Virus record (IMG/VR): IMGVR_UViG_3300028388_001540
Span: 1-48,189 of that record
Direction: 5' to 3' (one strand)
Source of the DNA: a virus
Length of the DNA stretch: 48,189 nucleotides
In this document: positions 9,165-31,420 of the stretch, piece after piece
How the letters are laid out: each line of letters starts with the position of its first letter
How positions within the stretch are numbered: position 1 is the first letter of the stretch
The notes under the pieces: model-generated
Told to the model about the DNA's origin: nothing
Database searches by the model: none
The model's input: only the letters and a program-made list of their open reading frames with translations
Made by a program: the position numbers and the translations under genes

Positions 9165-9197
9165 AAGGCCTCCGCAAATGTGGGGGCTTTCTTTTTT
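9165..9197 (+). terminator. Rho-independent terminator
   Basis: AAGGCCTCC (9165-9173) pairs with GGGGGCTTT (9182-9190), with wobbles, and is followed by CTTTTTT. The next promoter box starts at 9200, so termination and initiation are back to back. Confidence 0.8.
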
Positions 9198-9199
9198 CG

Positions 9200-9207
9200 T
9201 ATATTTG
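9200..9207 (+). promoter_or_regulatory. Bacteroidetes -7 box TATATTTG, 3 nt before ATG
   Basis: TATATTTG then AAC then the ATG at 9211. It lies directly after the terminator at 9165-9197. Confidence 0.65.
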
Positions 9208-9210
9208 AAC

Positions 9211-9861
9211 ATGGCTCAACTCAATGCAAACACCCCATATATTCAATGCTACGTAAGAAACAGTTGGATAGGTATGGGAGATGGTGTTACTGAGGGTTAC
9301 ATATTCGGTGTCAAGTCGATGCTGAACAGACCCATGCACTTTCATTTTCAATCAAGTTTCGGTGCTGTTTTCTGGATGCTTCCAATAGCCGCTTTCTGTC
9401 ACGATGAGAACTTTGACAGGATATCTGAAAACGAAGAGGAAAGGTTGAAGATATTGCAGACATGGGACTGTCAGTCAAACAATATAGCGGTAACTACATT
9501 TGCTTTTCTTCAGAACAAGAGAGTGGATGTACATTGCAGGGATGGTAAGTGGAGGTCTGGAAAATATCTTTTCACGATAGATGACTATGAGGGTGACCTG
9601 AATGAACTCAATGTCGGTTACTCCAACGATCAGGACTCAAAGTGTTATCAGTTCATAGTTCTAGATGACGGTAACTTCTGCATACCACCGAACAATCTTT
9701 GCAGGTGGCATAATCCAGACTTCATAGTCCCTTACCCTCAAGACAACGTTCCTAAGATAAAAATATTCAACAAACAGCTTACGTCAGAGGACATAGACAG
9801 AAGCTATGGTAACTCTGCATATTTCTTTTACAATGATACCAAGAAAGAAGAAGATCTGTAA
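9211..9861 (+). CDS. Conserved-looking phage protein of unknown function, 216 aa
   Basis: The start is the ATG at 9211; a longer frame from 9178 would begin inside the terminator. The protein opens MAQLNANTPYIQCYVRNSWIGMGDGVTEGYIFGVKSM and continues through RPMHFHFQSSFGAVFWMLPIAAFCHDE, a pattern I associate with a phage family of unknown role; it is probably a beta-rich globular protein. It has its own near-leaderless promoter. Its end overlaps the next gene by 29 bp. Confidence 0.7.
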   Translation: MAQLNANTPYIQCYVRNSWIGMGDGVTEGYIFGVKSMLNRPMHFHFQSSFGAVFWMLPIAAFCHDENFDRISENEEERLKILQTWDCQSNNIAVTTFAFLQNKRVDVHCRDGKWRSGKYLFTIDDYEGDLNELNVGYSNDQDSKCYQFIVLDDGNFCIPPNNLCRWHNPDFIVPYPQDNVPKIKIFNKQLTSEDIDRSYGNSAYFFYNDTKKEEDL

Positions 9862-14885: not shown

Positions 14886-17154
14886 TCACAGCCAAGAAAT
14901 AGTCTACGATAGACCAGACAACTATTTCGATAAGAAGAAGATTGAAGAGAAGTACGGAACGATAGAGAATTGGTACGCTCAGAATGTCAGGTACATTGCC
15001 ACTCACTACAACATAGCCGCAAACACGGACGAAGTTAAGCGAGAAGGTAAAAGAAGTACGAAGCGTTGGGCTGAGGAATCTCCAGTTGACCAGATCATCA
15101 ACAACTACAGATACTTCATGGGTACGCAGGAGAACTTCAACTTCGCGTACCTTACTGAGGATGAAAAAGGTGGTGAGCTTCCTGCCCCATACATCAAAGG
15201 TGAGCAGATCTTTGAGCTTATCGAGTATATGCGTGGAGGAATCAGAAAGGTTCTTAATTCCACAAAGGTTACCATCGAAAGCCTTGAGCCATCCAAGATA
15301 TCGAAGAAGATGCAGAAGGTTCAGATGATAAAACTGAAAAAAGACCTTGCTGAGTTCTTCAATCAGACACAGGAGAAGTACGGTATGGGATTCTTCCCTG
15401 AAGGTATTGGGAATAACATTGACCTTGATGAGGCCGTTGAAAAAGTAATGAAGTCCCCTATCGATGAGATGGAGGAGTACGGACTTGACCTTATCAATGA
15501 TATTATCAACAGGAACAGACTGAAAGACCAAATGATGCGGGCGTTCACCGACTGTGCTGTTGGCCGTTATTGTGGTGTTTATGTTGATGAGATGCATGGA
15601 AGACCATACACAGAGGTTATTCCCCCATACAACCTTATACTTGATTTCAGTAACGACTCCGACTATAACGAAACCGCTGAGTTCGTTGGTTGGGTATCGT
15701 TCATGACACCAGAAGAGATCTATTACAGATACGACCTTACAGATGAAGAAAGAGAACTCGTTAAGGAGATGTCTATTACAACTCCAGGGATTGGTTTTGA
15801 ACTCCTTAATCATTACAACGGATCAAGCGGTTCAGATATCGGTTTCAATTGGTGGGGCGGTCCTGATGGTAGAAATTATCGACAGGTTGCAGTAGTAACT
15901 GGATTTTGGATAACAGAGGTTCCAGAGAAATCAAAGATCAACAAAAAGAAAGGCGGCAAGGATATAACGCCAATTCACGGAAACGACTCAGAGCGATATT
16001 CCTACCTGAGAATAGATAGGGCTACACTTATAGGTAACGCCATTATTACAGATTACGGCAGAGACTATAATGTTGTCTACGACTCTATGAACCCAAGCAG
16101 ACCAATGCTACCTGTACGGGCATTCATTCCTAACATGATGATGGGCATGAACCGTTCTGTTGTTGACAGGATGAAGAAACTACAGGATGACATTGACGCT
16201 TACGAGTACAAGATACGTCAGAACATAGGTAAAGACCTTGGTAACGTACTGTTTGTGAACGGAATGAAGGTAGGTGATGGTGATTCCGTGAGAGAGATTA
16301 TCACGAACCTGAAGAAATATGCCATGCACGTTACTGACGGTTCAGACGGTGAAGACCCGAATGTGCTTGACGGTCAGAGACTTGTAGAGAAATTGGACAT
16401 GTCGCTAGGTGGAAATGTATCAATCTACGTTTCACTTATACAGGAGAAAGAGCGAATGATGAAGGAGATCATCAATGCTTCAAAGGTATCCATGGGGCAG
16501 TTGACAAGCTATGTCGGATACGGCTCACAACAGCAGTCCATCAGTCAGAATCAGTTGGGTATGGCAACATACTACGATGGATTCATGACATACTACACAT
16601 ACCTACTTCAGTATATCCTTAACAAGGCAAAGATCATGTTGATGGACATGGACGGAGAAGAAGCTGCAGATATTATGCTTTCAGAGGATGCTGTCAAGTT
16701 TTTCAAGAATACCACGGAGTTCCAATTGGAGGACATGATGGTAAAGGTTGATATTGAGGATGTCATCGATGAGCAGTCACGACAACGGCTACTTACTATC
16801 GCTCAGGCAATGGCTCAGAACGCAGATAAGACAGGATTTGATTGGGATGACTATATCGAACTTGAAACTGCACGTACATACACTGAGTTGAAAGATAAGA
16901 TGACCTTGAAGATCAAGAAACGTAAGATGCAGCAAGAGCAGCAACAACAGATGATGATGCTTCAACAACAGGCAGAACAAGAACGTCAACGTCAGTTCGC
17001 AATGCAGCAGCAGGAAATGGCAGAGGCTGGAAGAAATGCAAGAGAAGAAGCCAAACTCCGCCAAAAGACCATGCAGCCAGTTGCAGATAGAGAGGCAGAA
17101 CTCGCCTATGAACAGGAGCGTCAGCAGATGCCTCCCGAAGGTGGCGGTGCATAG
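14869..17154 (+). CDS. Portal protein
   Basis: 761 residues, assigned by size, position right after the terminase and overall character: long helices, an N-terminal wing and a C-terminal Gln-rich coiled coil (KMQQEQQQQMMMLQQQAEQE...) before PPEGGGA. In this family it would form the dodecameric ring at one capsid vertex through which DNA passes. It lacks the sequence of the smaller siphovirus portals and is closer in length to podovirus and crAss-like portals. The start MILDNSHSQEIVYDRPDNYF lies inside the previous gene. Confidence 0.8.
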   Translation: MILDNSHSQEIVYDRPDNYFDKKKIEEKYGTIENWYAQNVRYIATHYNIAANTDEVKREGKRSTKRWAEESPVDQIINNYRYFMGTQENFNFAYLTEDEKGGELPAPYIKGEQIFELIEYMRGGIRKVLNSTKVTIESLEPSKISKKMQKVQMIKLKKDLAEFFNQTQEKYGMGFFPEGIGNNIDLDEAVEKVMKSPIDEMEEYGLDLINDIINRNRLKDQMMRAFTDCAVGRYCGVYVDEMHGRPYTEVIPPYNLILDFSNDSDYNETAEFVGWVSFMTPEEIYYRYDLTDEERELVKEMSITTPGIGFELLNHYNGSSGSDIGFNWWGGPDGRNYRQVAVVTGFWITEVPEKSKINKKKGGKDITPIHGNDSERYSYLRIDRATLIGNAIITDYGRDYNVVYDSMNPSRPMLPVRAFIPNMMMGMNRSVVDRMKKLQDDIDAYEYKIRQNIGKDLGNVLFVNGMKVGDGDSVREIITNLKKYAMHVTDGSDGEDPNVLDGQRLVEKLDMSLGGNVSIYVSLIQEKERMMKEIINASKVSMGQLTSYVGYGSQQQSISQNQLGMATYYDGFMTYYTYLLQYILNKAKIMLMDMDGEEAADIMLSEDAVKFFKNTTEFQLEDMMVKVDIEDVIDEQSRQRLLTIAQAMAQNADKTGFDWDDYIELETARTYTELKDKMTLKIKKRKMQQEQQQQMMMLQQQAEQERQRQFAMQQQEMAEAGRNAREEAKLRQKTMQPVADREAELAYEQERQQMPPEGGGA

Positions 17155-21851: not shown

Positions 21852-21880
21852 GACCCCGTAAGGTCGGGGTTTCTTTTTAT
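21852..21880 (+). terminator. Rho-independent terminator
   Basis: ACCCCG (21853-21858) pairs with CGGGGT (21865-21870), followed by TTCTTTTT. A short palindrome CGGATA-G-TATCCG lies just upstream at 21827-21839. Confidence 0.8.
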
Positions 21881-23727: not shown

Positions 23728-24410
23728 TAGAGGTAGGTAAATACAGCATTGTAAGTTTACAGGAGGCGGTAGAATCTGCAAAGGAGATGTTACGCATACA
23801 GGATACAACTGAGTTCGATGGATTCCTGCTTAGAAAGGCAGACGAGGCAATGCGCCATATCGGTGATGACACCACCTACGCAAAACGTGCATGTACACTT
23901 GATATCGTTGATGGCAGAGCAAAGCTTCCTATGGGGTTCATAAGACTGCTCGGTGCAAGAATGTCCGACTCCAACGGCAACTGCTTTGAGCAGCCGTACC
24001 TTGACCTGCCTTACCTTACAGACTGTGGGTGTGAGAATATTGCGAACATCAACAACGGATTCAATAACCCATTCCAAATTCAAGAGGGATATATCGTCTT
24101 CCACGCGCCTTCAGACCTTGAAACGGACACCATCCGTATCGCATACATCTCAAGGAGCGTGGACGATGACGGGTTGATGCTGATGTCTGAGAGGCACGAG
24201 AGAGCGATAGAGGCTTATTTGTGCTATCAGTTCACACTGAGTTTCTTTGAAAACTATCCTGTCAACATAAGACAAGAGTTCAAGAACACCTGGAAGAATC
24301 AGAAGCAGCACCTTAAAGGCATGAGCCAAAGAGAAAGATTTGAAGAGAACAAACGTGAGATAGCCGCCATCCTGAATGCGTGGATAACCTCGGACAGAAA
24401 CGATAGATAA
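23724..24410 (+). CDS. Putative tail-tubular/ring protein, 228 aa
   Basis: The protein opens with helices (YSIVSLQEAVESAKEMLRIQDTTEFDGFLLRKADEAMRHIG), then strands (ACTLDIVDGRAKLPMGFIRLLGARM), and closes with a long helical tail. This layout resembles T7 gp11-like tail-tubular or crAss-like ring proteins. It is coupled at both ends (ATGA before, one-base overlap after), directly ahead of the large nozzle-like protein. Assignment is by architecture and context. Confidence 0.6.
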   Translation: MIEVGKYSIVSLQEAVESAKEMLRIQDTTEFDGFLLRKADEAMRHIGDDTTYAKRACTLDIVDGRAKLPMGFIRLLGARMSDSNGNCFEQPYLDLPYLTDCGCENIANINNGFNNPFQIQEGYIVFHAPSDLETDTIRIAYISRSVDDDGLMLMSERHERAIEAYLCYQFTLSFFENYPVNIRQEFKNTWKNQKQHLKGMSQRERFEENKREIAAILNAWITSDRNDR

Positions 24411-27400
24411 TGGCTGATCAACCAGTAAGATTCAACCCTGTCGGAAACATGGACAAGGACAGTGATCCTCGCTATGTCCGTCAGGGAAACTATATTGATG
24501 CAAAGAACATTCAGAAGCTCACTGAAAAGGGCGGTACTGGTGGTGCTGTTATTCCTGTAAAAGGAAATGAGTATGCGTTTGAACTTGGCAGTGTTCAGGT
24601 TCAGAACAAGAAGTACAGGATATACCCTGGTGAATCAGATAGCTTTTCAGTAGAGTCATACAATACTGTTCCAAAAGAGACTGATCAGGAATTTCCAGAG
24701 TTAAGTAATTTCCTTACATACATTAGGTTGACGATTACTTCTGAACCAACGTTTAATGTTGGTGACTACATAACTATAAGCGGTGCAGTTCCAAATGAAT
24801 TAAACGGGTCGTGGAGGGTATTATCCATATCAAACAATGATGTTGTACTGGAAATATCTCAAAATACAATACCTTCAATTGTACCCACAAGTGGTCCTGC
24901 GTCAAATATAGGTAATCCAGTTATAGATTCTGGTGTTTATGAGATAACGTTCCTGACAATGAATCAGGATTATGTTATTCAAACAATACCCACATCTGGA
25001 GATTTACAGTCTATACTTTCAAATCTTCAGTCTTCTCCATATTCGGCTCAATTCACATTTACTTTGACCTCAGATTATATTGAGGTTGAACTTAATTCTT
25101 ACGACTACTATGATTACTATATAAAGTCAACGGGTCCAAGTAGACTTGAGATATTAGCTATACAAGAGGCAATACCAGTAAATCTTGTTGGTGGTCTTAT
25201 AGCAAACGGAAGTTACGATCTTCTTGGTGATCTTTTCATTACATCAACAACACTTGCTGATGCTAATATAGAATTGAATTTTGATGTGCTATCAATTACA
25301 AACCAAAATGACGTTACCATACTTTTCAATCAGGAGCATGGCTTCAGTGTTGGTGAATGGATAGGAATAACAGGTTGTAGTGAAAGTTGGTTGAACGGAA
25401 CCTTTCTTGTGTCAGGAACACCATCTCCAAACAGTGTAAGGATAGTAACAAGCAACTACTGGGGCGCGGGTAACACACTACCAGCTCAGAACACGCTTTC
25501 AGACATAACAATCATCAAAGACCCAAGGTCTATAGGTGAAATAGGTGTGGCTCAATATGACCACCATTCTGACACATGGAGTTACACTAGGCTTTTGAGA
25601 GCTTTGAAATTGAACTTTGTGTTGAAACACGCAAACGATATTACAGGGCGTGATGACATACGAAGAAGAACTCTGTACTATACTGATGACTACAACAACA
25701 GAAGGGCATTCTACTATTACGGTGAGTACATTGAAGACGGTGCTTTAACGCATATCATTTCTGACAATTACTACACATACGATAATATTGACCAACAGTC
25801 AGAGGTGTCTTCTCCATCGATAGAAGCGAAAGTAAGCCTTGCTGAACAATTGCAGGGTGGTTCTTTGAAAGCTGGTAACAAAAGGTATTTCTGTTACTTG
25901 GTTGATTACTTTGGTAACAAAAGTGCATACTCTCAAATAAGCAATATTGTAAGTGCTTACAGAGGTGTTCCCAGTGGACAGATATATGGCAATGATGAAG
26001 GGCAAGACACGTACAAAAAGAACAGGATAAGGATTGAAGACATTGATCAAAATAAGTACGAATACATTGCTCTTGGGTACATAGACTACACTGGAGATGT
26101 TATAAGTGCATATGTTTTATCAGAAAGAGAGATAACTGGTAGAACAATGATCATAGAGCATAACGGATCTGAGCAATCTTTTGTTGTAGACTTAGCGACA
26201 ATAACTGTAAGCAACCTTAATATACCAAAGAAGGCACTGAATGTTGACATCATTGATAATAGGCTTGTGTTCTCTAATTTACAGGAGCCTAAGAAAATAG
26301 ACCTTAGACCATGGGCTAAGACGTTCAAGCACAGAGTAAAAAAGAAGTATGTAACAGAGTCAAGCAAATATCAATTAGGCGAATATCAAGATGTTCAGGT
26401 AATACACGATAATCTTGGTTATATGCTGAATGAAACATACCGATTTGGTGTGCAGGTTTACTTTAAGGATTCAGGAACGTGGTCAGAAGCTGCATGGGTT
26501 GATGACATTAAGATAGACTTTAAACAAATAAACGAATCCAATCCAGAGAACGATAATAGAAGAGGGCAAAATGGTAATGAAATAATTACCAATTATGACC
26601 TGAATGAAACTATACAAGGAGACGAGTATGTGAGACTACCGTTTGGCGGTGTTGTGGATCCGTCAAATAACTCTAATTTAGAGTTAAAAACAAAAAAGTT
26701 CACTAGAGTAATAGTTCCTTATGTTGAGTTTTTTGACTTTGACCTTAATTTTGAAGTTGAAGGTGTTCCTATAAGAAACCTTATCAGCAAGATAAAGATT
26801 GTACGAGCAGAATGCATTCCAGAAGTTATTGCTACTGGTCCAATTGTACTTTCTGTTGGATTTGGAAACCCTGGTCAATCAGCGGGAACATCTGGAAACT
26901 CAAGGTATCATTTAGATAATTACATAACGTTATCAGATAATCAGTCTGAATCAATTACAGAGTCAACATCTTTAGGCCAAGATGCAAATAATAAGGTAGA
27001 ATTAGATAACCCAACATTTCCTTTATCTTATGATGGTTATGAAGGAGATATATATCATTATGTTGGGCCTAAAATATATCTTACAGAAAATGACAATGAT
27101 CCTATATTCGATTGGATATCTTTTGAAGGAACATTTCATGAATACCCATTTGCTTATGGCTTTCCATCTCAAGGAGGAGCCAAGCCGTTTTTCTATAAAG
27201 CATCAAGTTTAAATCTTGATTCGGGTAATTATTTTGCTTGGGGTTTCTTTTTAGATAAAGAGAGCGAGTTTGCTCAAAGAAATAAAATAGGTAACCAGAA
27301 CAACATATCCGTTCCTGGCAACGGAATATCTAATGTATGGAGAAGAGCTTACTACTCAGATTCTGTTGGTGTTGGAAACGCAACTGGAGGGTTCTACTAT

Positions 27401-30085
27401 GATATATTTACCCCTGGATCGGGTCCGCTATCAAACAATGGATATGATGCATACAATAACCCGTACATAGGTGGTGGGTATCCTACACTTCAGAGTTATT
27501 TCCCAAGATTTTCAAGTTTAAATCCATCAAACAGAATAATAAGTCAAAGATTATGCCCAATATATCATTACGGTGAGGATCCATACAAAAAATTGTATGA
27601 AGGAACTGGTGCGCCAGAAGGTTTTAGCGGAAAACACGGGCAGCCTTTTGGTCTTTATGTTAGACTTGGCAATGAACACTCAACGGCACAAGTTAACCTT
27701 CCAGAAGACGAGTTCACTAGAGTTAAGACACCGTTCTATCCATTTTGGGTAAATAGAAGAATTGTTACATTTTATTCTCCAGACATATTATTTGACAATC
27801 AAGCAATACCAACATCTGGTAAACTGAATGTGTTTGGAGAATATAGAATGGATGCTGATAGATTTAACGATTTTGCAAACGGTATTTTTCAGACGGTCAA
27901 TCAATTGTCTGGTTATTCAGAGTATACTGTAGAGGGAATGCAGACAACGTTTGATCAATATGATATTGATGAGGTATTTGACGTTGGGGATGGTGCTTCT
28001 CAAGAGATATATGATGGAGCAACATTTAGAAAGGGTTATTCTGCACAAGCTAAGAATTGGAACGGAACAACTGCAATTCAAGCAATTAAAGAAAAGACAT
28101 ATGAGAAATACAATAATCTTTGGATAAACCCAAGATCACTTGTATTTAAGGTTGACGGAAACCCAGACCCATCATTGAGAGATGGTCTTACTGGTATTGA
28201 GGCTCCTAATAAAAACACGGATTACGGTGTTTACTACGTGCAGATGTTCTCAGAAAACAAAGGTAAGTATGGGGCAACTGGAGACTCTTCATATATAGAC
28301 ACTGGATTCTCTGTTGATATTGATGATCTTGCTGATACTAATGGTAGGGTTGATAGGAATCAGATAAACGTGTTCGGTGGTGACACATTCACGCAGTCAA
28401 CGTACCTAGCTGCAAGAAAAATAAATCCGACATTGGCTCCAGATGATGGGGATTGGGGTGAATCAACTGAAGGAAGAATAGATGCTAACGGACCTGGATG
28501 GGGTGGCGGTATGAAGTTCTACTCTCAGAATAGGGTTAACTCGCAGTTACGAACAGATGATTCTGATTCGTATTTATATCCAAAAGACACGCAAGATCAG
28601 GGAGATTGGCTTGAAGATTTTGTTTTTGGTCATGGCAGTAACTTCCGATATAACTCTGGATATACACCACAAAGTGGAGTATTATCGTACAACTCAATAA
28701 ACGACAGACTGCTCAAGCAACAGGTAGACCTACCATCGCGCATAGACTACAGTGAGAAGTACGAGCAGAACACACTTGATGACAAGAACCAATCGTTCCT
28801 ACCTCTTAACTTCAAAGACATAGACCAAGCATTCGGAGAGATAATCTCGCACAAGAATGTAAACGGTGAACTGTTCACACTTCAACCAAGAAAATTCCAA
28901 GCTCAGTTCTTTAATGCGTCAGGAACATTGCAAACCGAATCAACCGAAGGGCTTAACGTGGTTATCGGTGACGGGGCTGTTCTTTCAAGGGATGGTCGAA
29001 CACTATCATCATACGGTACAGAGCATAAGTGGTCTGTGATCAAAGGTAAAAGCCCAGGTGGTAAGGATGTCCTTTACTGGTACAACCAAGAGTCAAAACT
29101 GATTATGCGTTTCGGTGCAGATGGAACCGTTGTTCTTTCTGATGTGCATGGTCTACGTTCATTCCTTGAACTTGATGCAAGATGGACGCAAGGTAAGGAC
29201 ACTCCATATGTTGGAGATGGTGTACGTGCAGTTTGGGATGACGAGTACAAAGAGGCTATTTGGACATGGAGGGGTGTCAGGAACGTTAACACATGGCGCG
29301 GTCAAGGTCTTGTCAGGGGTCCTGTCGGAACTCCAACTGGAACACCTGCTGTTGTGGAATACCTTGTAGGTCAAGTAGTTAGCAATCCAAACGCACCTAC
29401 AGATGGGTCTAATGGTGTTGCTGAAACATTCGATAATATTCCAAGATTGTTCAGATGTACGGTGACACACACGAACATTGGCAATTACGAGCCTGGCGTA
29501 GGAGCATTATGGCAAGATGTATGGGAACAGATACCATACGATGATGAGAACTACTACACATGGTTCACGCTTGCATTCAATGAGATGACCAACGGTTTTT
29601 CTTCCTTCTACTCACACAGACCGAAGATATACTTCCCATGGAGGAATAAGTTCCTGTCGGCACACCCAACAGATGAAAGTAAAATCTACGAACACAGAAA
29701 GGGTGAGTACACTACTTGGTACAATACAGAAGCAGGAGAACTGTCTGAGGACGCATACATTGAGGGTGTTGTGAACTACATGCCAGAGTCAAGTAAGAAG
29801 TTCGTAGCAACTCAGGTTATCAGTGACAATGAGCCTGACAGAATGGAATTTGAAACCAAGCGTCACAAGAGTTATCTTGAAAAGGGTGAGTTCGATGATC
29901 ACGATGACCATTGGAGAAGCCCTATCAAGAATGATACTACAGGTGGCAACACTCCTGACGCAGACACGGAATCTCTTACAGGTGATTACATTAAGGTCAA
30001 GTTCTTCATAACCAAAAAGCTTTACAACAGACTTTACAACTTTGTAATTAAAGTAAGGGAAAGGTTGAGGGTCTATAGAAAATGA
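24410..30085 (+). CDS. Large tail nozzle/stabilisation-like protein, 1891 aa
   Basis: The N-terminus VRFNPVGNMDKDSDPRYVRQ, then GNYIDAKNIQKL and a GN-containing segment, is typical of very large nozzle or 'stabilisation' proteins of crAss-like and other podovirus-type Bacteroidetes phages. The rest is beta-rich, with Tyr/Asn/Gly-rich blocks. Two modules near residues 105-150 and 300-349 share a G-D/E-x-I-x-I-x-G...NG-x-W/F-x-V pattern with the 19823 and 21910 proteins. Near 1640-1695 a segment Y-x-V-G-Q-V-V...LFRCTVTHTN recalls small carbohydrate-binding modules. The C-terminus is basic. It probably forms the distal tail and is followed by a terminator. Confidence 0.65.
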   Translation: MADQPVRFNPVGNMDKDSDPRYVRQGNYIDAKNIQKLTEKGGTGGAVIPVKGNEYAFELGSVQVQNKKYRIYPGESDSFSVESYNTVPKETDQEFPELSNFLTYIRLTITSEPTFNVGDYITISGAVPNELNGSWRVLSISNNDVVLEISQNTIPSIVPTSGPASNIGNPVIDSGVYEITFLTMNQDYVIQTIPTSGDLQSILSNLQSSPYSAQFTFTLTSDYIEVELNSYDYYDYYIKSTGPSRLEILAIQEAIPVNLVGGLIANGSYDLLGDLFITSTTLADANIELNFDVLSITNQNDVTILFNQEHGFSVGEWIGITGCSESWLNGTFLVSGTPSPNSVRIVTSNYWGAGNTLPAQNTLSDITIIKDPRSIGEIGVAQYDHHSDTWSYTRLLRALKLNFVLKHANDITGRDDIRRRTLYYTDDYNNRRAFYYYGEYIEDGALTHIISDNYYTYDNIDQQSEVSSPSIEAKVSLAEQLQGGSLKAGNKRYFCYLVDYFGNKSAYSQISNIVSAYRGVPSGQIYGNDEGQDTYKKNRIRIEDIDQNKYEYIALGYIDYTGDVISAYVLSEREITGRTMIIEHNGSEQSFVVDLATITVSNLNIPKKALNVDIIDNRLVFSNLQEPKKIDLRPWAKTFKHRVKKKYVTESSKYQLGEYQDVQVIHDNLGYMLNETYRFGVQVYFKDSGTWSEAAWVDDIKIDFKQINESNPENDNRRGQNGNEIITNYDLNETIQGDEYVRLPFGGVVDPSNNSNLELKTKKFTRVIVPYVEFFDFDLNFEVEGVPIRNLISKIKIVRAECIPEVIATGPIVLSVGFGNPGQSAGTSGNSRYHLDNYITLSDNQSESITESTSLGQDANNKVELDNPTFPLSYDGYEGDIYHYVGPKIYLTENDNDPIFDWISFEGTFHEYPFAYGFPSQGGAKPFFYKASSLNLDSGNYFAWGFFLDKESEFAQRNKIGNQNNISVPGNGISNVWRRAYYSDSVGVGNATGGFYYDIFTPGSGPLSNNGYDAYNNPYIGGGYPTLQSYFPRFSSLNPSNRIISQRLCPIYHYGEDPYKKLYEGTGAPEGFSGKHGQPFGLYVRLGNEHSTAQVNLPEDEFTRVKTPFYPFWVNRRIVTFYSPDILFDNQAIPTSGKLNVFGEYRMDADRFNDFANGIFQTVNQLSGYSEYTVEGMQTTFDQYDIDEVFDVGDGASQEIYDGATFRKGYSAQAKNWNGTTAIQAIKEKTYEKYNNLWINPRSLVFKVDGNPDPSLRDGLTGIEAPNKNTDYGVYYVQMFSENKGKYGATGDSSYIDTGFSVDIDDLADTNGRVDRNQINVFGGDTFTQSTYLAARKINPTLAPDDGDWGESTEGRIDANGPGWGGGMKFYSQNRVNSQLRTDDSDSYLYPKDTQDQGDWLEDFVFGHGSNFRYNSGYTPQSGVLSYNSINDRLLKQQVDLPSRIDYSEKYEQNTLDDKNQSFLPLNFKDIDQAFGEIISHKNVNGELFTLQPRKFQAQFFNASGTLQTESTEGLNVVIGDGAVLSRDGRTLSSYGTEHKWSVIKGKSPGGKDVLYWYNQESKLIMRFGADGTVVLSDVHGLRSFLELDARWTQGKDTPYVGDGVRAVWDDEYKEAIWTWRGVRNVNTWRGQGLVRGPVGTPTGTPAVVEYLVGQVVSNPNAPTDGSNGVAETFDNIPRLFRCTVTHTNIGNYEPGVGALWQDVWEQIPYDDENYYTWFTLAFNEMTNGFSSFYSHRPKIYFPWRNKFLSAHPTDESKIYEHRKGEYTTWYNTEAGELSEDAYIEGVVNYMPESSKKFVATQVISDNEPDRMEFETKRHKSYLEKGEFDDHDDHWRSPIKNDTTGGNTPDADTESLTGDYIKVKFFITKKLYNRLYNFVIKVRERLRVYRK

Positions 30086-30132
30086 TTACTTTTGCTTAAG
30101 CCCGTCCTGGGTTAGTTCGTTGCCGAACTTTG

Positions 30133-30162
30133 AGCCGTTGCAGAAATGTAGCGGCTTTTTTT
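30133..30162 (+). terminator. Rho-independent terminator after the 1891-aa gene
   Basis: AGCCGTTGC (30133-30141) pairs with GTAGCGGCT (30148-30156), 9 bp with two wobbles, followed by seven T. Upstream GTTCG-TTGC-CGAAC (30115-30128) makes another small hairpin. Confidence 0.85.
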
Positions 30163-30163
30163 G

Positions 30164-30171
30164 TATATTTG
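30164..30171 (+). promoter_or_regulatory. Bacteroidetes -7 box TATATTTG of the non-coding RNA
   Basis: The box begins two bases after the terminator T-run. A TTG at 30138-30140 lies 23 nt upstream and may be the -33 element. Transcription would begin near 30177, and no start codon follows close by, unlike the other boxes. Confidence 0.6.
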
Positions 30172-30177
30172 TATCGC

Positions 30178-30475
30178 AACTCAAATAGAGTTTGTCGGTT
30201 TTAAAAGAGTTTACCGAAAGTTCTAAGGCAACGAACAATAATTAACCAAAGTTCTTTTTAGTGTTGAAAGCCCTGCATCGAGCAATGTCGTCCTACTGAC
30301 AACTCGGCAATAAAACATCTCGTTGTATCAACGGATACCTGTGGGGTTAGATATTGTAAGCTACACTAGGGGTGGCATGGCGAGAACGGATACAATGATT
30401 GAGAGGCGGTTCTTGACGATGGCAATACGGTAGACGCTAGCCAGCAGATGTCGGATAATACCTCCGATGTTTGAA
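30178..30475 (+). ncRNA. Candidate structured non-coding RNA inside the virion operon
   Basis: About 300 nt without a usable reading frame, with its own promoter. Stem-loops visible by eye: AACTC/GAGTT (30179-30193); TCGGT/ACCGA (30195-30199 with 30213-30217); GTTC/GAAC (30220-30223 with 30233-30236); CGAG/CTCG plus TGTC/GACA (30279-30306); GTATC-AACG-GATAC (30325-30338), with CGTTG-TAT-CAACG as an alternative; CGAGAAC/GTTCTTG (30381-30387 with 30409-30415), extended by CAT/ATG; and ATGTCGGA/TCCGATGT (30448-30470). ACGGATAC occurs twice (30331 and 30386). It has no tmRNA, RNase P or group I intron signature that I can find. Both ends are estimates. Confidence 0.6.
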
Positions 30476-30515
30476 TAGAGTAGGTGTATCGTATAGTGAT
30501 GTACTTTGTTTTTCG

Positions 30516-30523
30516 TATCTTTG
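30516..30523 (+). promoter_or_regulatory. Bacteroidetes -7 box TATCTTTG, 4 nt before a minigene
   Basis: TATCTTTG then AAGT then an ATG at 30528, the same 4-nt spacing as at several other operons. Confidence 0.6.
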
Positions 30524-30527
30524 AAGT

Positions 30528-30557
30528 ATGTGTAATCTTAAAAATGTATTGTTTTGA
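30528..30557 (+). CDS. Nine-codon leader minigene
   Basis: ATG at 30528 reads MCNLKNVLF and stops at TGA 30555-30557, which overlaps the TTG start (30554-30556) of the 288-aa gene. The box-to-ATG distance is that of the near-leaderless genes. The likely role is to load ribosomes on a leaderless message and hand them to the TTG start by termination-reinitiation. Confidence 0.5.
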   Translation: MCNLKNVLF

Positions 30558-31420
30558 GTTGGATTGGAGCCGTGGTACAAGGTGTAAGTGGTGCTATTCA
30601 AATGGGCGTGTCAATGGATCAGCTATCAAAGCTACCATCAGCAAAGACCTTCTCACCAGCTACAGACCTTGAGACAGCCACATCGATGGCACGTAGAGCA
30701 GCCCAACAGGGTATGACTCCACAGGAACGTGCTGCCGCAGAACAAGCGATAGGTACTGCACAGAGCAGAACACAGAGAGCAATGGAGCAGCGTGGTCTTG
30801 GGAACCTTGCCGCTGCCGTATCACAGATCAGGACCACTGAAGCCATTAATCAGTTAGAGGCTCAGAATCAAGCTATTAAACGTCAGAGTCTTGGTCAGTA
30901 TGCAAGCTTGGCTGGTCAAATGCAAGCTATTGAAAATCAGAATGTTCAGTCTTTCAATCAAATGCTGTACGCACAGCAACAGGCTTTAGGTCAGGCTGCA
31001 CAGGCAGGATTCAGAAACCTTGCTGGAACAGGAGCTACTATCGCAGAGGCTATTGAGGGGAAGGAAGCTATTGATGATGAGACAATAAAAGACCCTGTAA
31101 CAACTGGTCAAATGGGAGTTACTGATACAATGCCTACAAATTATAGTTCTGGTCTTGAAATGACAGAAACTCCAACAGAAGGGTTATCAACAACTGGTTT
31201 GTCAATGGATACTCTTGGAACAGTTGATTCAGTTTATGCGGCTGGTGCTGGTTCATCCCCATTCATGGCTCAAGAACAAATACCAGTTCAGAACTTGTTC
31301 CCATCAGAAATATCTACAACAAATATGTATGGGGATTTATCTACATCAAATTTAATGTACGATAATTTTTATGATGACAGTATAGGTGCTGGTCTTACAA
31401 CGGCTCCAACTAATCAATAA
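30554..31420 (+). CDS. Putative internal virion protein, 288 aa
   Basis: The TTG start is chosen because it overlaps the minigene stop and because the protein then begins MSWIGAVVQGVSGAIQMGVS, a short hydrophobic, Gly-rich helix like those opening T7 gp14-type internal core proteins. A long Ala/Gln-rich helical region follows (EQAIGTAQSRTQRAMEQRGLGNLAAAV...QAIKRQSLGQYASLAGQMQAI), then a Thr/Ser-rich tail. Proteins of this type are packed in the head or tail and ejected with the DNA. The assignment is by composition and position. Confidence 0.6.
   Translation: MSWIGAVVQGVSGAIQMGVSMDQLSKLPSAKTFSPATDLETATSMARRAAQQGMTPQERAAAEQAIGTAQSRTQRAMEQRGLGNLAAAVSQIRTTEAINQLEAQNQAIKRQSLGQYASLAGQMQAIENQNVQSFNQMLYAQQQALGQAAQAGFRNLAGTGATIAEAIEGKEAIDDETIKDPVTTGQMGVTDTMPTNYSSGLEMTETPTEGLSTTGLSMDTLGTVDSVYAAGAGSSPFMAQEQIPVQNLFPSEISTTNMYGDLSTSNLMYDNFYDDSIGAGLTTAPTNQ

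Follow-up and report, generated by a model that had tools for sequence, protein, structure and literature searches.

In crAss-like phages (Crassvirales), the virion block places the muzzle gene ahead of cargo-type genes, as in phi-crAss001, where gp44 encodes the muzzle protein and gp45 and gp46 are the cargo genes behind it (PMC10172136). In Flavobacterium, the TAnnTTTG promoter box lies at -12 to -5 relative to the start (PMC9723704). Phage morons, a third point of comparison, are extra DNA between genes that are adjacent in relatives, with their own transcription signals and dispensable in those relatives. Here, we analyze a stretch of 48,189 nucleotides that makes up IMG/VR virus record IMGVR_UViG_3300028388_001540 (referred to below as the window), in which a crAss-like virion block is interrupted by about 411 nt of non-coding DNA. 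Our best explanation, which we hold with roughly even confidence, is that this insert is a moron-like accessory noncoding transcription unit present in one lineage of environmental crAss-like Bacteroidota phages.

The window preserves the crAss-like order, with a muzzle gene and then cargo-type genes, but departs from it in that an insert separates the muzzle gene from the next gene and that the 288-aa product of this next gene has no family match (neither Pfam nor PHROGs). We assign the phage to the crAss-like podoviruses on two grounds: its muzzle protein matches crAss_MUZ, and its portal has matches among PHROG portal families. The TAnnTTTG promoter style, together with the phylum matched by the terminator described below, points to a Bacteroidota host. 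The 288-, 577-, and 3094-aa ORFs occupy positions corresponding to the phi-crAss001 cargo genes, and because a family match was found for none of them, their putative cargo role is assigned by position only. The coordinates of all features are collected in Table 1.

Table 1. Features of the muzzle gene junction and its insert, in window coordinates.
Feature	Position	Strand	Evidence or remark
1891-aa crAss-like muzzle (tail) protein gene, left neighbor	24410-30085	+	Pfam PF25731 crAss_MUZ, E 2.7e-43
Left copy of imperfect flanking direct repeat, TGATTACTTT, including muzzle stop codon	30083-30092	+	BLAST against L002 record; pairwise alignment
Lineage-specific non-coding insertion, ~411 nt	30086-30496	+	Absent at same junction in L002, L003, L022, and L042; non-coding codon usage
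TACTTTTG, match to Bacteroidota -7 box TAnnTTTG, with TTG 19 nt upstream	30087-30094	+	Pattern scan
Putative short RNA 1, about 64 nt	30099-30163	+	Hairpins 30099-30113 and 30115-30131, then terminator hairpin
Left arm of 17-bp helix, GTTCGTTGCCGAACTTT	30115-30131	+	p 0.0006 by shuffling
Intrinsic terminator, GAGCCGTTGCAGAAATGTAGCGGC plus T-run	30132-30163	+	Terminator scan (30132-30157 plus T-run)
TATATTTG, -7 box fused to terminator	30164-30171	+	Pattern scan; predicted RNA 2 start near 30176
Putative RNA 2 or leader body	30176-30496	+	No terminator before next promoter; fold not better than shuffles
Right arm of 17-bp helix, AAAGTTC-TAA-GGCAACGAAC	30217-30236	+	Local complementarity
Long imperfect hairpin at 3' end of insert	30425-30494	+	Includes 11-bp stem, loop TAATACC
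Right copy of flanking repeat, TGATGTACTTT	30497-30507	+	BLAST against L002 record; pairwise alignment
Ordinary promoter/leader of 288-aa gene, TATCTTTG at 30516-30523	30497-30553	+	Conserved in relatives
288-aa gene	30554-31420	+	TTG start (30554) supported, aligned position being ATG in relatives; cargo/internal virion protein by position only

A sequence-only reading of the window had described 468 bases without a usable frame between the 1891-aa and 288-aa genes, holding a terminator, a promoter, a short repeat, and a further promoter at the end. Each of these elements was recovered: the gap spans 30086-30553, between ORFs 24410-30085 and 30554-31420; the terminator is found by scan; the promoter box TATATTTG lies where it was placed; the repeat ACGGATAC has copies at 30331-30338 and 30386-30393; and the last promoter is represented by TATCTTTG. 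Codon-usage log-odds, trained on 15 genes of the window phage, are negative in every 90-nt piece of the insert in all six frames, while the phage genes score +0.09 to +0.37 per codon. The stop-free pieces of the insert gave no convincing Pfam or PHROGs match. The insert encodes no protein.

Searches with the 288-aa and muzzle proteins identified four relatives that cover the junction and encode the same protein pair (L002, L003, L022, and L042), and all four have junction gaps of only 22-55 nt (about 54, 55, 22, and 55 nt, respectively). One of them, L002, shares 96% identity with the window in the portal and 94% in the muzzle C-terminus; identity in the latter is 89% for L003 and 56% for L042. 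The final ~55 nt of the gap are the normal conserved leader of the 288-aa gene, including a promoter, TTGTACTTTG...TATCTTTG, that is common to the window, L002, and L003, and the extra DNA is thus confined to about 30086-30496. When the window is aligned by BLAST to the L002 record, window position 30092 pairs with 37108 and position 30495 with 37095, so the empty-site sequence stands at both edges of the insert. This 14-nt stretch, TGATTGTACTTT, occurs there in imperfect copies of 10-14 nt, the pattern that a target duplication or a short-homology event would leave. We also considered whether the end of the muzzle gene is duplicated at the right edge; the evidence is weak (p 0.024, against one sequence out of four), and we do not claim it.

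The same edges bear on the possibility of an assembly artefact, in which a short repeat led to foreign sequence being assembled into the contig. Such an error could account for the single occurrence of the insert and for the imperfect short repeat at both edges, but the flanks stay in register on both sides, the terminator-promoter module is in the phage's own style, and the composition is near that of the phage (GC 0.43 in the insert against 0.40 in the window). We consider an artefact very unlikely. The comparison with relatives bears on the role first proposed for the gap, a structured phage RNA that serves the virion in packaging or tail assembly. The location among virion genes and the structured left part of the insert suit such an RNA; however, four relatives that encode the same virion proteins lack the insert at this junction, among them one whose portal is 96% identical, and no copy was found elsewhere in the relatives' records, several of which are fragments. 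The sequence-only reading had itself named absence of the gap in close relatives as an observation that would speak against its proposal. Because relatives with nearly identical virion proteins do without the insert, an RNA for packaging or tail assembly is the least probable of the explanations that we weighed.

Other sites where the window and L002 differ suggest that optional cassettes are not restricted to this junction. Window positions 9207-9833, part of a 227-aa ORF (9178-9861) right behind a TATATTTG box, are absent in L002, and about 560 nt of L002 (28327-28886, or L108:10327-10886) are absent from the window at 21869-21878. The 227-aa ORF directly follows a fused terminator-TATATTTG module, and at the counterpart site in L002 the module stands directly before the next gene, an HNH-like 147-aa ORF. 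In the L002 cassette, a fused terminator-promoter is accompanied by what may be a short hairpin RNA and by two ORFs on the minus strand, 62 and 99 aa long. The insert at 30086 fits this series of optional cassettes, with the difference that no protein is encoded in it.

Elsewhere in the window, the most over-represented 9-mer is GTCAGGAAC (reverse complement GTTCCTGAC), with 17 copies on both strands against about 0.4 expected (for example, 1433-, 2060+, 3694+, 28918+, and 46053+) and an extended consensus of about GTCAGGAACATTRTCA. It has 11 copies in the L002 record, none in 20 kb of the L022 record, and one in 460 kb of control loci, and is possibly a primase, recombination, or protein-binding site. 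A 98-nt inverted repeat (1043-1140 and 1499-1596, 97% complementary, 358 nt apart) lies in an ORF-poor region upstream of a C5 methyltransferase gene, and parts of that region match relatives; the repeat may be an invertible element, a replication structure, or an assembly artefact.

Measured against phage morons, the insert is extra DNA between genes that are adjacent in four relatives. Morons differ from their phage in base composition, and GC here is 0.43 against 0.40. Bracketing signals are present as consensus matches only, with promoter boxes at 30087 and 30164 on either side of the terminator (30132-30163), and no terminator follows RNA 2. Unlike a moron, whose product is usually a protein, the insert has no coding signal in any of the six frames, and its strong promoter comes after the terminator, so that the order promoter-RNA-terminator holds only for the possible 64-nt RNA. 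An RNA product is possible but unproven, and we therefore use the term “moron-like” rather than “moron.”

The transcription signals are concentrated in the gap. Three TAnnTTTG boxes fall within its 468 nt (30087, 30164, and 30516), compared with 22 on the plus strand of the other 47.7 kb, and the spacing described in Flavobacterium places their predicted starts near 30099, 30176, and 30528. The first box, TACTTTTG, had been missed in the sequence-only reading; it lies partly inside the flanking repeat, could be fortuitous, and as a single consensus match is a weak candidate for the promoter of a short RNA starting near 30099. The terminator shares its hairpin with Bacteroidota terminators of the AGCC-N-GCAGAAATGTA-N-GGCTTTTTT type, but the rest of the insert does not resemble them. 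Among 395 Bacteroidota genomes, five contain 84-93% matches to it over 28-40 nt, one directly behind a tRNA gene. Since the search with the insert matched these genomes in the terminator/promoter part only, the terminator is of a common host type. Similar fused terminator-promoter modules occur elsewhere in the window (9168-9207) and in the L002 record (16294-16322).

We propose that the insert, lying downstream of the muzzle gene and ahead of the promoter that serves the following virion gene, would act as an insulated transcription unit. The host-type terminator would stop transcription coming from the muzzle gene, as well as that of a possible ~64-nt RNA begun at the TACTTTTG box, and the host-type promoter fused to it would start a second non-coding RNA towards the 288-aa gene. 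As this downstream gene keeps its own conserved promoter, expression of the virion gene would be independent of the insert. Its product would be one or two small RNAs that are dispensable and play an accessory part in regulating the host or the phage. A complementarity of 17 nt links the RNA just before the terminator to the start of the second RNA, and the two could pair.

Analysis of RNA folding assigns the exceptional structure to the left part of the insert. Among 481 windows tested, the most extreme fold is that of 30110-30259 (150 nt, plus strand; z about -5.6), and the left ~150 nt alone are exceptional (z -5.3 to -6.1); 30100-30260 reaches z -5.26, with none of 200 shuffles as good, and the whole insert z -3.2. 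This signal consists of the terminator hairpin plus the 17-bp helix. The complementarity of GTTCGTTGCC (30115-30124) and GGCAACGAAC (30227-30236), reported earlier as a short perfect match, is real and had been understated, as it extends to 17 bp interrupted by a 3-nt bulge (p 0.0006 in a local complementarity test with shuffling of one side). This test replaced an RNAduplex test that accepted long loop-rich duplexes and was uninformative; we also set aside a self-palindrome test of the entire insert (p 0.3), in which each hairpin is counted twice. The “six independent stem-loops” described from sequence are not evidence of structure beyond chance, because shuffled sequences fold as well as the stretch that the promoter would start, 30177-30520 (z -0.51). 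The left third is folded far beyond chance, and the proposed 250-350-nt RNA from 30177 is not in itself unusually structured. At the 3' end, the 100-nt window 30410-30509 around the long imperfect hairpin is moderately unusual (z -2.9).

This arrangement invites a reading in cis, in which the insert is a leader or attenuator that sets expression of the downstream virion gene by alternating among the 17-bp helix, the terminator hairpin, and read-through. The terminator does sit within the helix, and RNA 2, having no terminator, would run into the 288-aa gene. The helix and the hairpin, however, stack in the same predicted structure and do not compete, the 288-aa gene has its own promoter, which is conserved in relatives that lack the insert, and those relatives manage without it; a cis-acting leader is distinctly improbable. 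In trans, the predicted duplex of RNA 30098-30163 (-28.2 kcal/mol folded alone) with RNA 30177-30260 (-10.2) reaches -53.9, a gain of about 15 kcal/mol. There is a small chance that the insert makes two small RNAs in tandem, the first reaching to the terminator and the second beginning immediately downstream of it, and that they pair through the 17-nt stretch and form a self-contained RNA-RNA regulatory pair, a mobile accessory unit aimed at host or competitor-phage transcripts.

Searches for homologues of the insert returned its terminator and promoter. No Rfam family matched the window at the gathering threshold, a check that the sequence-only reading had suggested, and low-threshold scans of the insert gave sub-threshold resemblances only. 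The nearest were the terminator-ended sRNAs suhB/mmgR (RF00519), anti-hemB (RF02837), and RcsR1 (RF02552), which resemble 30093-30171 in being short hairpins that end in an intrinsic terminator. Their scores of 18.7, 16.1, and 14.2 bits are far below the gathering thresholds of 41, 49.5, and 60, respectively; these families are described from other phyla, and the match is mostly to the terminator. Neither ARAGORN nor Rfam finds a tRNA or tmRNA, and the likeness of GGCAATACGGTAGACGCTAGCC (30420-30441) to a tRNA-Leu D-arm is a resemblance only. By blastn, the insert has no significant match in phages, plasmids, or E. coli genomes. Scans of viral contigs with 16-mers revealed no extended similarity on BLAST follow-up, and a scan of genome contigs with 18-mers gave the number of matches expected by chance, likewise without extended similarity. 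In the relatives' records, the insert was matched at the terminator/promoter only. A 26-nt exact match joins the right helix arm (window 30216-30241) to L052:6272-6297 on the minus strand, within a 2105-aa coding sequence of an unrelated phage contig and without wider similarity. Simple chance is unlikely given the seed, and the match is best described as chance or unexplained.

Several observations count against an accessory unit. As no homologue of the insert was found in any collection searched, neither conservation nor covariation backs an RNA function; no terminator separates RNA 2, which is no more structured than shuffles, from the next promoter; and the promoters and transcription start sites are consensus matches only, with the leftmost box possibly fortuitous. 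The main rival is a decayed cassette, in which a small gene was inserted with its terminator-promoter module and lost its reading frame, leaving an idle RNA. The lack of conservation and the chance-level fold of RNA 2 agree with decay, and similar modules adjoin small protein genes, namely, the 227-aa ORF of the window and the minus-strand 62- and 99-aa ORFs of L002. None of the six frames retains coding composition, however, the stop-free pieces have no convincing family match, and the left part is unusually structured. We regard decay as unlikely overall, though worth serious consideration.

Most likely, the insert is an optional extra that gives rise to a small RNA on which construction of the virus does not depend. 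It provides a clear example of a gap that, seen in a single genome, resembles a conserved RNA gene but on comparison with relatives proves to be a lineage-specific insertion. If the insert is transcribed, environmental crAss-like phages would swap non-coding accessory cassettes, besides protein-coding ones, into the virion operon at terminator-promoter junctions.
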